A DNA stretch of 37,940 nucleotides from Muribaculaceae bacterium (GTDB lineage Bacteria; Bacteroidota; Bacteroidia; Bacteroidales; Muribaculaceae). The stretch spans positions 91,551-129,490 of the forward strand of contig JAGATX010000027.1 in NCBI GenBank assembly GCA_017621055.1, given 5' to 3'. Made by a program: the position numbers and the translations under genes. The notes under the pieces are model-generated. The model was not told the DNA's origin, ran no database searches, and worked only from the letters and a program-made list of their open reading frames with translations. Positions 15,575-19,826 of the stretch are shown here, piece by piece. Every line of letters begins with the position of its first letter. The stretch's first letter is position 1.

Positions 15575-17449
15575 TCAGAACAGATAGTCCACGCAGGTCA
15601 CGTCGGCGCTCGGCCTCTGGCATTGCGGCGAGGCGGCCACATGGAGGGCTATGGCGCGCGTCATCAGCATATCGTCGTGGTAGCCGCGACGTGCCGCAAA
15701 GCTGCCGTTGGGCAGCTGCTCGTAGGTGGCCATCTCGTCGCAACACCCGGCATCGTGCTCTATGTAAGCTCCCTCGCGCACGGCCTCGACGAGGCCGGCA
15801 ATGAGCATGGCCTTGGTGGATCGGTTGGTATGAAATCCCACGCGGCGGCTCACCGTCTGCGTGGCCGTGTCGTAACTCTCGCGGTGGTACAGGTTCTCAT
15901 ACTGAGCGGCCATGCGGTTGAGCACAAAGAGGTTGCCCTCGGCGGCGCCTCCGCCATAGGCCGAGGTCTCGAAGGTATTGCTCTCCACCACCAGCAAGGC
16001 ATCGTTGTAGAATCGTCCTATCGTCATGGCCTTTGCCGCCAGCAGGTCGTGGTCGCAGTGACCTCGCCACTGAGCGGCGATCTCGGGCAGGCGGTCACCG
16101 TCGCCGCGGCGCAGCACGGCCACCACCGACCAGTCGGCTTTTGCCGAGCGGCCGCCGACATCGACGGCCACAACATAGTCGGCACCCTCTTCAGGCATGA
16201 GCCATACGGTCATGGCGCCCGTGGCGTCGGCGGTGAATCCGGCGCCCCCGACATCGCCGCGGCGTCCCTCAACGCCGGCGCAACGCTGACGCAGCGCCTC
16301 CACGGCGGCGTTGGCAAAGACACCGGCACCCGTGTTGGCGAAGGCTTCGATGTCGTCGGTGGGATATTCGGCGTGCAGCTGCTCAGCCGACGGATATTCC
16401 AGACTTTTGAGGTGGTACCAGTAGATGCGGTCGAGGTCGATGCCCATGTTCCACAGGCGCCGCTCGTAGTCGGTTAGTGTTGAGGCGAAAGCGCGGCGGT
16501 CGGGCGGCGGCGTGCTGTATATGTCGATCATATACCACGGCACGAAGACGGCGTGCTTGTCGCCGTGCCCCTCGCGGCAGCGCAGCCACTCGGTGTGGAA
16601 ATAGTTTCCCACTCCGTTGGCCGTGGACTCCATCACTATCAGTGAATAAGGCACCAGAGCTATGGCGCCGCATACCGCACGCACAAAATCGGAAGGCGAG
16701 CGGCGATCGGAAGCACCCCAGAATGCTGTCTCGCTAAGGTGCGCCATGGCATAGTCGGCGCCGCGCACGGCGTCGGCGTTCTCGGCGGTGCCCAGGGTCA
16801 CGCGGCAGCCGCGGCCCGTGATTTCGCGAACGTTGGCGCTCCCCTCGTAGACCTTGAACTGCGGAGGCGTGTCGCCCTCCCACAGCTCCGTCGGGTAGTT
16901 CGCCAGCAGCGTACGGTACATGCCGCGTATGCCCGCGGCGGTATCTTTCACGTGCGCGCAGATGAGCGAGTGCCAGTTACGGCGGTGGCAGCTCTGCAGC
17001 CACGCCATATATATCTGCACCAGCGTGCTGCCGCCCCACTGCCGTGCTTTCAGCAGAATGAGGCGGATAGGGCGCCCTGCCAGGCGGTCACTCTCCAGCA
17101 CCTCCAGCACGTGGCGCTGCGCGCGGTTGAGCCTGAACGGCACGTATGCCGACGTGATTTTGTCCTTGATCACCACGCATCGGGCGCACCAGTACTCGAA
17201 ATCGTGGCGGCAGCGCAGACGGCGCCACACGTCGCCACCGCTGCCGGCGGCTGCCTTGAATTCGGCGTCGGCAACCATGGTGCGCGGCAGGTATGCTACC
17301 GGCACATCAGGCTCGGGAGTACGCCGACGCACGCGCACAGCCGACGGCGCGCTCCGCAGAGGGTCGTGCTCCGCTCCTTTGCGCCACTGGCGCCGGCGCC
17401 GCTCGTCATCGGCGAGCATGGCCTCGAGATCGGGGGTCTTATCGCTCAT
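15575..17449 (-). CDS. Phage-type terminase large subunit (TerL), orphan
   Basis: A 624-residue protein with the full two-domain architecture of a tailed-phage DNA-packaging motor. The ATPase part has an adenine-contact region (FRLNRAQRHVLEVLE, about 106-119), a Walker A-like loop KARQWGGST at 134-142 in which the usual lysine is Gly140, a Walker B-like AMAHLSETAFW with Glu240, and a coupling motif ESTANGVGN at 274-282. The RNase H-like nuclease part has Asp430 and Asp439 (VVAVDVGG, KADWSVV), Glu489 (LLVVESN) and Asp592/Asp593 (GYHDDMLM), so its metal-binding acidic residues look intact. The ATG at 17449 overlaps the upstream gene by 11 bases. No portal, small terminase, capsid or integrase gene is present in the window. 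Known role of the family: filling and cutting phage DNA; its role here is unknown. Confidence 0.85.
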   Translation of the reverse strand: MSDKTPDLEAMLADDERRRRQWRKGAEHDPLRSAPSAVRVRRRTPEPDVPVAYLPRTMVADAEFKAAAGSGGDVWRRLRCRHDFEYWCARCVVIKDKITSAYVPFRLNRAQRHVLEVLESDRLAGRPIRLILLKARQWGGSTLVQIYMAWLQSCHRRNWHSLICAHVKDTAAGIRGMYRTLLANYPTELWEGDTPPQFKVYEGSANVREITGRGCRVTLGTAENADAVRGADYAMAHLSETAFWGASDRRSPSDFVRAVCGAIALVPYSLIVMESTANGVGNYFHTEWLRCREGHGDKHAVFVPWYMIDIYSTPPPDRRAFASTLTDYERRLWNMGIDLDRIYWYHLKSLEYPSAEQLHAEYPTDDIEAFANTGAGVFANAAVEALRQRCAGVEGRRGDVGGAGFTADATGAMTVWLMPEEGADYVVAVDVGGRSAKADWSVVAVLRRGDGDRLPEIAAQWRGHCDHDLLAAKAMTIGRFYNDALLVVESNTFETSAYGGGAAEGNLFVLNRMAAQYENLYHRESYDTATQTVSRRVGFHTNRSTKAMLIAGLVEAVREGAYIEHDAGCCDEMATYEQLPNGSFAARRGYHDDMLMTRAIALHVAASPQCQRPSADVTCVDYLF

Positions 17450-19826
17450 ATTCCAGGGTGAAATGATTGAACACCATGTACTTGCCCGCGCCGGCAAGAC
17501 GCAGCAACGCGCCCGTGGCGGAGCGTCCGTGGAGTGCCCCGCGCACCGGATAAGCCGGCGCGCCGCTTATTTTCAGCGTTGTGGGCGGTACCGCGGCTCT
17601 CTCGTCGTTGCCCGGCGTGGCGGTGAGGGTACATCTGAGACCGCTGCCGGAGATACGTGCGCCAAAGGCAACGGGTCGGCACGGGCCGGCCTCCCCATAG
17701 TCTGCGTACTGCTCGTACTCCATCTCCACCTCGCTGTTTGGGCTGCTCTCCGGCAGAATAAGGGCGTCAGAACTTGTGAAAAAGAGCTCGGAACCGACAG
17801 TCGCCACCCCGCAGCCCTCCACCCCGCCGCGGCGGTAGCTGCCATGCGTTGCCGATGCCTCGAAGGCACGGGCGCCGGCGGTAACGAGGGCTATTACCTC
17901 GTTGTGGGCAATATCACGGGCCACAGCGCTATATGTGGCGTTCCACAAAGTGCGCACCCGCCGCGCGTCGTTACCCACCAGCAGCAATGCGCCCTCCACG
18001 GCGGCATAGACGCCGCCGGCACCGGCGCACAGCGACTGCCGCGAGAGGGTGCCGCGGCTGTCGAGCGACCGTAGCGTAATTTTCCGGCTGTCGGCGCCGC
18101 TGACAGTTGCCGAGAGGAGTCCGCGGGCACATGCCGCCACAAAACGATGTCGTCCGAACTCCCAGGAGCTGTCGGAGCCGTCGGCGGCGCACAGCGCTGC
18201 CACTACGCCGGTACCGCTGCTGCCGCAGCAACGCAGAGCGAGCGGCGCCGACGCATCGCCGACAGCCACGGCATCGTCAAAATCCTCGTCGGCGTTCTCG
18301 ATATCCACAATCAGCGCCGCCGATACCTCGCGGGGAGTCACCGGCGCCAGGCCCGCGTTGACCCATGCCGAAAAACGCCCGCAAGCCGAAGGCCGCAGTT
18401 CGAAATCGGCACGCCGCGTGGTGCCCGAACTGTAGATAATAACGCTCATGCGTGTGGCGTCGGGCGACGGATAGCATACCAGCGGTCCCAGCTTAGTCGG
18501 CGCCGCGCCCGCACCCTCGAAAGAGCTTTGCACGCCGCGTCGACCGTTGCCGAACCAAGTGACCACCAGCGCCCGCCAGGCGCCGTCGCCGCTCGCGGCT
18601 GCATATTCGGCGGGACTGTAACCCCCGAAGCGCACAGCATGGAGATTGCCCCACAGCAATACGCCGCCCGAGCGCGCCAGTGCCGACGCCCCGAAGGTGT
18701 GCGGTGCCGTCAGAAGGCATTCCATTGGTGTGGCGACATTCACGGGCCGCCCCAGAGCCTCGCCGAAGGCCCGCGCCTCGGCGGCGATGTCGGTGCCTCG
18801 GCAATTAGCCACCGTGGCCGTCACACCCATGGCCGACGGCGCACCCAGAGTGGCGGCGGAGGTGCACACGCTGTCTATCCGGGCAAGGGCGGCAAACACG
18901 GCCGACGGCGATGCCGACGTGGCGGCGCCTCCGGGCGTGAGACGCCCTATGCCGTGCGCGCTGTCGCGAACGGGTGTGAACACCGTGGGCGACGTCGGCG
19001 ACCAGCTGTGGAACTGCGGTGACACCTCTACCTCCACACGTGCCACCCGCCCATCGGTATCCGGCTCTACTGCGGCCTCTATCACATATGTCGACGCCGT
19101 CAGGGTATAGGGCGCCACTGTGGTGGCATCGCTGTTGGCCAGCAGAACGCCGTCGGCGAGCTGTGCGCCGCCGGCGCTGACAACCACGGGCGCCGTGCGG
19201 TGCACGCAGCGACCCGACCGGTCGTAATAGGCGCAGCGGGCAAGTACCGGCTGCACGTAGCGACCCATGGCCGCAGCCTCGGAGGTGAGCTGCCGGTATG
19301 CGTCCTCGAAGTCGGAAATCAGTGCCTTGAGGTCAGTGGCGTTCGGCCTACTGCCGGCGCCGTAGCTCGCCGACAGCTTGCGCGCGCCCACAGTAACGCT
19401 CAGCGATGTAACCGCCGCTGCCTGCAGACGTGCCGTCGGGAATGGCCGTGCTGCAGGCGTGAGCGTCCACTCGCTGCCGCTGCCCTTGAATTCGTACACA
19501 CCCTCGCGGCACACTATATTCAAGGTTCCGTCGGTGCCAGTGAATGTCGCCGTCGGCTCCGACGGCAAGGAGTCGGCCAAGGGTGTCGGTCCGTTTGTCT
19601 GCGACAGGTGGGCGACGGCCAGTTCACCGCCACGGCACAGCAGATAGCGCGGCAACCGCCCCTCGGTGAGGCGAGCCAGCGGTCGCCAGCCGCCATAGCC
19701 TTTGAGCGGCACATCGCCGCCTATCGACCGAAGGACTCCGTCGCCGCCAAGGCGCAGATTTGTTACTTTCACGGCACCACGGCCATCCATTTCCTCGAGT
19801 TTGTTGGTGATTTTCTTTGTCTTCAT
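17439..19826 (-). CDS. Large protein of unknown function paired with TerL
   Basis: A 795-residue protein, first gene of the two-gene cassette. It has no signal peptide or membrane segment. The N-terminus is basic (MKTKKITNKLEEMDGRG), followed by VTNLRLGGDGVLRSIGGDVP. The rest is Ala/Gly/Ser/Thr-rich and looks like beta structure, with blade-like repeats such as GTLNIVCREGVYEFKGSG (101-118), GGVYAAVEGALLLVGNDARR (604-623) and VGSELFFTSSDALILPE (677-693). The C-terminus (about 715-795) reads like the closing domain of phage stabilisation or tail-hub propeller proteins, ending KYMVFNHFTLEYER. I do not recognise a named family; a phage neck or tail structural origin is inferred from the layout and the adjacent TerL. 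The frame is open upstream to 20198, but the ATG at 19826 gives the only sensible N-terminus. Confidence 0.75.
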   Translation of the reverse strand: MKTKKITNKLEEMDGRGAVKVTNLRLGGDGVLRSIGGDVPLKGYGGWRPLARLTEGRLPRYLLCRGGELAVAHLSQTNGPTPLADSLPSEPTATFTGTDGTLNIVCREGVYEFKGSGSEWTLTPAARPFPTARLQAAAVTSLSVTVGARKLSASYGAGSRPNATDLKALISDFEDAYRQLTSEAAAMGRYVQPVLARCAYYDRSGRCVHRTAPVVVSAGGAQLADGVLLANSDATTVAPYTLTASTYVIEAAVEPDTDGRVARVEVEVSPQFHSWSPTSPTVFTPVRDSAHGIGRLTPGGAATSASPSAVFAALARIDSVCTSAATLGAPSAMGVTATVANCRGTDIAAEARAFGEALGRPVNVATPMECLLTAPHTFGASALARSGGVLLWGNLHAVRFGGYSPAEYAAASGDGAWRALVVTWFGNGRRGVQSSFEGAGAAPTKLGPLVCYPSPDATRMSVIIYSSGTTRRADFELRPSACGRFSAWVNAGLAPVTPREVSAALIVDIENADEDFDDAVAVGDASAPLALRCCGSSGTGVVAALCAADGSDSSWEFGRHRFVAACARGLLSATVSGADSRKITLRSLDSRGTLSRQSLCAGAGGVYAAVEGALLLVGNDARRVRTLWNATYSAVARDIAHNEVIALVTAGARAFEASATHGSYRRGGVEGCGVATVGSELFFTSSDALILPESSPNSEVEMEYEQYADYGEAGPCRPVAFGARISGSGLRCTLTATPGNDERAAVPPTTLKISGAPAYPVRGALHGRSATGALLRLAGAGKYMVFNHFTLEYER

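Follow-up and report, generated by a model that had tools for sequence, protein, structure and literature searches.

The DNA analyzed here (the window, 37,940 nt) is a stretch of the genome of a Muribaculaceae bacterium, at positions 91551-129490 of contig C1 in an assembly (G000) of 2.03 Mb, with 34 contigs and 93.5% completeness. A two-gene cassette is encoded on the minus strand, comprised of a phage-type large terminase and a probable tail protein:

15575-17449, minus strand: TerL, the large terminase, 624 aa, with ATPase and RNase-H-like nuclease motifs intact and homologues across the family
17439-19826, minus strand: probable tail nozzle-type protein of short-tailed phages, 795 aa, assigned by AlphaFold fold matches
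17439-17449, minus strand: 11-nt overlap of the nozzle gene 3' end with the TerL start, likely a site of translational coupling

The positions and strand of both reading frames agree with those given in an initial annotation of this DNA, which also proposed that the genes are translationally coupled; the 11-nt overlap makes such coupling plausible. Among PHROG TerL families the terminase matches phrog_2 (9e-21), and it matches T4 gp17 chains at 2e-8; Pfam returned zero matches for either cassette protein, and NCBIfam a sub-threshold TerL match and nothing else. The sequence has the motifs KARQWGGST, HLSE, ESTANG, VDVGGRS, VESN, and HDD, and an 18-row alignment shows no variation at K134, E240, E274-G279, D430, D439, E489, D592, or D593. 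We take these motifs and residues to serve the ATPase and nuclease functions, and the original description of a full-length TerL with both sets of motifs holds.

The surroundings of the cassette are ordinary chromosomal genes, as initially described. Of 20 other open reading frames in the window searched with Pfam, 16 belong to ordinary families (NAD kinase, GroEL, FadL-type porin, YfhO, TonB receptor, MacB efflux, cobalamin adenosyltransferase, and others), four have no match, and the Pfam scan of these 20 recovered no phage family and no integrase or transposase. The contiguous run of phage genes with integrase, lysis, and replication genes that characterizes an intact prophage was likewise not found at the cassette by Pfam on the 20 flanking frames; this assessment covered the window, and the blocks described below (on contig C12 and around gene c11) were viewed as maps and translations. 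The GC content of the cassette, initially likened to that of its neighbors, is in fact somewhat higher (0.659 vs. 0.621 and 0.591 in the 5-kb flanks). A repeat scan around the cassette revealed no terminal repeats flanking it, and repeats nearby that were considered as element ends were rejected, as they resemble chance matches in GC-rich coding DNA.

The 795-aa partner had been assigned to no known family, which is correct for sequence searches (no match in Pfam, PHROG, or NCBIfam, none by tblastn against phage records, and no credible match of its profile to PDB sequences) but not for its fold. The AlphaFold model (pLDDT 86.9, pTM 0.84; alignment of 32 sequences) has 20 best PDB fold matches that are without exception chains from phage entries (virion, tail, or portal-tail), with phicrAss001 and SU10 at the top and P22, Sf6, T7 gp12 ("tail nozzle protein"), and others also among them; some of these chains we take to be nozzle-type tail proteins. 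Additionally, 170 viral models match at an E-value of 0.001 or better. With TM-scores that are partial (0.22-0.47 by query length for the 20 best), the match assigns a fold and a likely role rather than close kinship, and the nozzle-type proteins of SU10, P22, phicrAss001, and T7 share the fold with no detectable sequence match. Based on this model, the partner is likely a tail nozzle-type protein of short-tailed phages. Homologues of its gene occur in six of 82 phage loci, and in three of those six they lie within ∼2 kb of the portal gene.

The absence of portal and capsid genes, also noted initially, is true of the window but not of the genome. The capsid and portal profiles, built from chromosomal genes that were found near some cassettes with proteins of the Bacteroides phage BKO1-TP3, helped to locate a second set of particle genes on contig C12, and a third block lies on C1:

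C12:15533-16777: major capsid protein, 419 aa, Pfam SU10_MCP at 2.2e-52
C12:13564-14829: portal protein, 433 aa, Pfam P22_portal at 9.5e-17
C12, between capsid and portal: adaptor-like protein, 191 aa, SU10_adaptor at 0.038, below its cut-off
C12, beside the capsid: scaffold candidate, 112 aa, proposed from where it lies and from a stretch at its C terminus resembling that of G003
C1:78480-78836: c11, putative small terminase
C1:77990-78866: block of c18 and c11, beyond the window and ∼28 kb away from the cassette

On C12 the order is scaffold candidate, capsid, adaptor-like gene, and portal; the scaffold candidate of this genome is absent from the matches of the c5 profile. For c11, we propose a small-terminase role from its position and its likeness to a phage gene near TerL: a c11-like gene is present in 49 of 80 viral loci and, in the cases shown, lies near TerL, mostly just before it. 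The particle proteins are of caudoviricete origin, as determined by sequence for TerL, the SU10-type capsid, and the P22-type portal, and by fold for the nozzle. No integrase, replication, or repressor genes were noticed in the three blocks (Pfam on window neighbors; maps and translations elsewhere), and no lysis or receptor-binding/fiber genes were identified in them. The retained genes are what a short-tailed phage needs for head building, filling, and closing. As a yardstick for core genes hidden by assembly gaps, 23 of 28 genomes yielded rpoB, the present assembly not being among them.

Although initially called an orphan, the cassette belongs to a set of eight genes that is divided into three blocks. 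The common order is nozzle-TerL-scaffold-capsid-adaptor-portal-c11-c18, in one direction, and it is seen in the chromosome of G022 (L214) and, as far as each contig reaches, in the short viral-collection contigs L421-L423. The present genome has the same order divided into consecutive blocks: nozzle and TerL in the window (block A), the scaffold candidate, capsid, adaptor-like gene, and portal on C12 (block B), and c11 and c18 on C1 (block C). The genome of this set is endogenized at multiple loci, as is often the case for gene transfer agents (GTAs).

Dispersal is widespread in related genomes. Among the first 61 of 149 family genome handles (listed rows for TerL, nozzle, capsid, portal, and c11, with prophage-type TerLs excluded by hand), 45 have all five markers, at one, two, three, four, or five places in 3, 7, 21, 6, and 8 genomes, respectively; 42 of the 45 have them at two or more places, a count that contig breaks may inflate. 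TerL and nozzle lie within 3 kb of each other in 33 of 51 genomes, as do capsid and portal in 29 of 50, and blocks are up to 2.5 Mb apart along single contigs. In G437, a complete genome from another family, the genes stand apart, with the nozzle at 1.13, the capsid at 1.40, and TerL at 1.43 Mb. When the window was compared with 20 loci of 19 related genomes (one locus, L048, being a prophage copy), the partner gene adjoined or lay near TerL in 14 of the 21 loci, and besides the partner no gene cluster was common to more than four of them.

The neighbor genes of the blocks differ in most genomes compared, as would be expected if the blocks were moved, with helper phages, by a multipartite satellite or transposing element. 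There is one match per genome in most genomes, however, and the trees described below follow genera; together with the lack of an integrase or transposase among the 20 window frames and of noticeable terminal repeats at the cassette, this leads us to give such an element the least credence of the readings considered.

Within the family, TerL was found in 136 of 149 genomes and 29 of 30 genera, mostly as one match per genome, and in 127 of 149 once the apparent prophage-only genomes are set aside. The best TerL matches listed are mostly at 45-59% identity (range 36-59%, apart from the query). The nozzle was found in 134, the capsid in 136, the portal in 140, and c11 in 131 of the 149 genomes, counts which include prophage-type copies, the two types being counted together for portal and c11. 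A TerL was classed as prophage-type where its frame is at least 690 aa, its identity 41-48%, and no other copy is present among the matches listed. By this definition G028, G030, G064, G069, G100, G102, G118, G131, and G139 seem to have a prophage-type TerL only, the call for G131 and G118 being less sure given that their markers lie on several contigs; the capsid is also prophage-type by score in G069, G100, G118, G131, and G139.

Beyond the family, a sample of 295 genomes from the order has TerL in 24 (two weak or partial), the capsid in 22, and the nozzle in 22 (one weak). All three occur together in the same 21 genomes, which are nearly the only ones with any of them, and which comprise four of the same family and members of seven other families. 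The TerL of f20 falls among viral rows in the tree, and f20 seems to be a phage-type case. In a sample of the phylum, matches were limited to two of 306 genomes (the present genome and one weak match). Among the best 80 of 553 named records, TerL matches are mostly from Muribaculaceae, Porphyromonadaceae, or Bacteroidales, including Heminiphilus faecis. The cultured strain H. faecis AM35 (L153) carries TerL, nozzle, c11, and c18.

Evidence for purifying selection comes from dN/dS across homologues, which in the listed pairs is 0.03-0.09 for TerL, 0.03-0.23 for the capsid, 0.04 and 0.14 for the portal, 0.17-0.23 for the nozzle, and 0.11-0.30 for the adaptor. These pairs have 72-99.3% identity and dS of 0.02-2, with at most 14 listed per gene, and several of them represent one genome as two loci, such that independent pairs are fewer. 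Stops inside the matched span occur in two TerL rows and 10 capsid rows among the matches listed. The relaxed selection and broken frames of a degenerate prophage were not found, with dN/dS well below 1 in the listed pairs. These low values, the invariant catalytic residues, and near-universal presence in the family contradict the suggestion that the cassette is a chance relic.

Phylogeny was analyzed by genus for 38 of 38 TerL rows and 44 of 46 capsid rows. In the TerL tree (38 genomes), six genera require five changes, which is the minimum (shuffled mean 19.1, with 0 of 200 as low); g1, g5, g13, g22, and g20 form single clades, and g12 does not. In the capsid tree (44 rows), eight genera require nine changes against a minimum of seven (shuffled 25.6, with 0 of 200 as low), and g5, g3, g12, and g13 are not single clades. 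The nearest neighbor belongs to the same genus for 19 of 21 TerL, 19 of 21 capsid, 17 of 19 portal, 13 of 15 nozzle, and 17 of 19 rpoB sequences, such that TerL and rpoB are much alike in this respect. Distances were correlated across 26 genomes (15-26 per comparison; 22 rpoB sequences, with the partial G053 rpoB excluded), giving r of 0.72 for nozzle-rpoB (p 0.001), 0.38 for TerL-capsid (p 0.007), 0.31 for TerL-rpoB (p 0.02), and 0.29 for capsid-rpoB (p 0.035); the TerL-portal and portal-rpoB correlations (both 0.13, p 0.16) are not significant. The genus clustering indicates mostly vertical inheritance and co-diversification with hosts; TerL and capsid distances correlate modestly with those of rpoB, and portal distances do not do so significantly.

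The chromosomal TerLs were also compared with those of viruses. In a tree of 114 rows, which kept 77 of 82 viral rows (at least 480 aa), 34 chromosomal rows (25 from the family, nine from other families) stand on one side of a branch with SH-aLRT support of 96, joined there by three viral rows that are very distant and on long branches; on the other side are L090, two prophage rows, and the remaining 74 viral rows. The best viral-collection TerL has 43% identity, in addition to one 113-residue fragment at 52%, in a single-protein scan that recovered 59 loci (an earlier scan gave at least 80). Among the best 80 of 116 viral-collection capsid matches, those in five contigs reach 51-57% identity; three or four of these contigs have the compact cluster, and one has a prophage-like set. 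The remaining matches do not exceed 40%, except for a partial one at 54%. The three to four contigs with the compact cluster may represent a mobile form of it.

Among the records searched, the isolates with the nearest TerLs are the Bacteroides phages BKO1-TP3, BS-TP4, and BF1-TP2 (38-41% identity; 40.6% for BKO1-TP3), which are phage records of 64-68 kb, unlike the dispersed chromosomal blocks. BKO1-TP3 has a homologous capsid, portal, and adaptor and a c11-like gene, as in the chromosomal set, but is also annotated with an integrase, a repressor, an endolysin, and genes of 2,638 and 5,553 residues, none of which was noticed in the chromosomal blocks. Three Bacteroides phage records, PQ571269.1 (L181 17873-19987), PQ571277.1, and PQ571263.1, label their TerL-matching genes "tail spike protein." The prophages L048 (G002:C3) and L087 (G282:C32) are related to the chromosomal set and coexist with it in some hosts; in L048, an open frame of ∼2,300 residues adjoins the portal gene. 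In a comparison of amino-acid cost, the GC-adjusted difference from viral homologues is −0.42 for TerL, −0.54 for the portal, and −0.07 for the capsid, differences which are small and come from rows that were not deduplicated, and which weakly favor a cost shift of the kind regarded as a GTA signature.

These relationships bear on whether the genes are decaying or repeatedly acquired prophage remnants that are common by chance in these hosts. Such an origin would account for the related prophages in the same hosts (L048 and L087), the related temperate phage BKO1-TP3, and the genomes that seem to hold prophage-type copies only. It is very unlikely, however, given the low dN/dS of the listed pairs, frames that are mostly open, the clustering by genus, the position of chromosomal TerLs apart from nearly all viral TerLs, and the joint occurrence of the same three genes in 21 of the 295 genomes sampled from the order.

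The arrangement and descent of these genes suggest that the cassette is probably the packaging-motor and nozzle block of a GTA that is dispersed in the genome and was domesticated from a short-tailed temperate Bacteroidales phage. A piece of a dispersed GTA-like system was among the options named in the initial annotation, and it is the one that the evidence supports, from the three-block particle set, the co-occurrence of its genes, and selection on them; a stand-alone DNA-cutting or defense module, also named, is unlikely because the capsid, portal, adaptor, and nozzle genes are co-inherited. A GTA is defined, in the accessible part of a published account, by a caudoviricete-derived particle, an endogenized genome that is often multi-locus, and mostly vertical inheritance, and further by a genome of its own that is not fully packageable in one particle, mostly random host DNA inside, and delivery to cells (PMC9662315). 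The first three of these six features are found here, as read from the genes; as to the fourth, blocks lying as much as 2.5 Mb apart on a single contig may be too distant to fit together in one head, depending on its capacity.

We lean, with less assurance, toward a broader reading, in which the GTA is ancient and still functional, predates the split of several Bacteroidales families, and is near-universal in the Muribaculaceae-type family, its operon having broken into blocks and its particles, made in trans, exchanging chromosomal DNA among dominant gut commensals. In the mechanism proposed for the GTA, a host signal would lead to expression of the particle parts in trans from the separate blocks, and a procapsid would assemble on the portal. 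Since nothing known marks its own DNA, the motor should package chromosomal DNA by the headful: TerL would pump this DNA until the head is full and then cut it, the adaptor and nozzle would close the filled particle, and the particle, once released, would inject host DNA into kin cells. A phage particle that was domesticated and kept for some other use (lysis-linked killing, a phage decoy, or protein delivery) would also be consistent with the conservation of particle genes across the family and with a nozzle that evolves faster than TerL in the listed dN/dS pairs. We consider it unlikely, as DNA packaging is indicated by the portal, by c11, and by a TerL whose ATPase and nuclease residues are invariant, and a killing tail or an empty shell should need none of these.

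The GTA proposed here has parallels in the alphaproteobacterial and spirochete GTAs (Rhodogtaviriformidae, Bartogtaviriformidae, and Brachygtaviriformidae), which likewise are phage-derived genes fixed in host genomes, and from which it differs in host phylum and in its nozzle of the short-tailed type; the RcGTA tail is longer and non-contractile. Those GTAs, as far as the available text of the source describes them, often occupy several loci, are vertically inherited, and have a TerL distinct from viral homologues (PMC9662315). The Faecalibacterium GTA, FpGTA, also comes from a gut bacterium and, in the accessible portion of its description, comprises TerL, a TerS candidate, portal, scaffold, and capsid and has no replication genes; it differs in belonging to Bacillota, in its 10.5-kb operon, and in its particle reads and mass-spectrometry data (PMC12946183), the present set, in comparison with all of these GTAs, being known from its genes alone. 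The likeness to these GTAs and FpGTA is drawn from descriptions rather than gene homology. For Bacteroides, the same portion reports lateral transduction, not a GTA (PMC12946183), and a literature search by title and start of abstract, with most subscription papers and preprints outside its reach, found no report of a GTA in Bacteroidota.

If the proposed reading is true, a major group of gut bacteria owns a gene-exchange particle independent of phage infection, which would add a new phylum and a new particle type to the known GTAs. Selection would then have held the parts of the virion together even as the operon dispersed, and why hosts retain GTAs, a question of long standing, could be addressed by experiment in harmless commensals that grow in culture. 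Such a particle might also help to explain transduction-like Bacteroidetes DNA in mouse gut particles, for which the part of the study available provides a lead only: in a mouse fecal sample, Bacteroidetes contribute 83 of 186 contigs with mobilization patterns, much the same proportion as they make up of all contigs, and generalized-transduction or GTA-like patterns are present in 46 contigs (PMC7667829). These patterns are consistent with the GTA reading and do not constitute a test of it.

Several variations were observed in individual genomes. In genus g30 (G050, G086, G113, and G126; L215, L216, L217, and L220), the TerL match covers the ATPase half only, and the nuclease half seems to have diverged or been lost; the capsid and portal are kept. 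G041 has two near-identical TerL copies on different contigs (L045 and L046), neither adjoining a nozzle gene. Apparently identical capsid genes occur in bins of two genera (L197, G127:C169, and L198, G116:C262), perhaps due to cross-binned contigs. The capsids at L036 240-1673 and L154 10367-11854 have an N-terminal hydrophobic stretch, as in the phage-type capsids of L181 and L087, and those of the same genus as the present genome (L213, L040, L222, and L224) do not. In other families (L081, L082, L084, L085, and L086), TerL lies near c12 (another small-terminase candidate), c7, c36, or c97, and near c33 or c85; the latter two (574-864 aa) are similar to part of phage gp55, which has 5,553 residues, as if a giant gene had shrunk.
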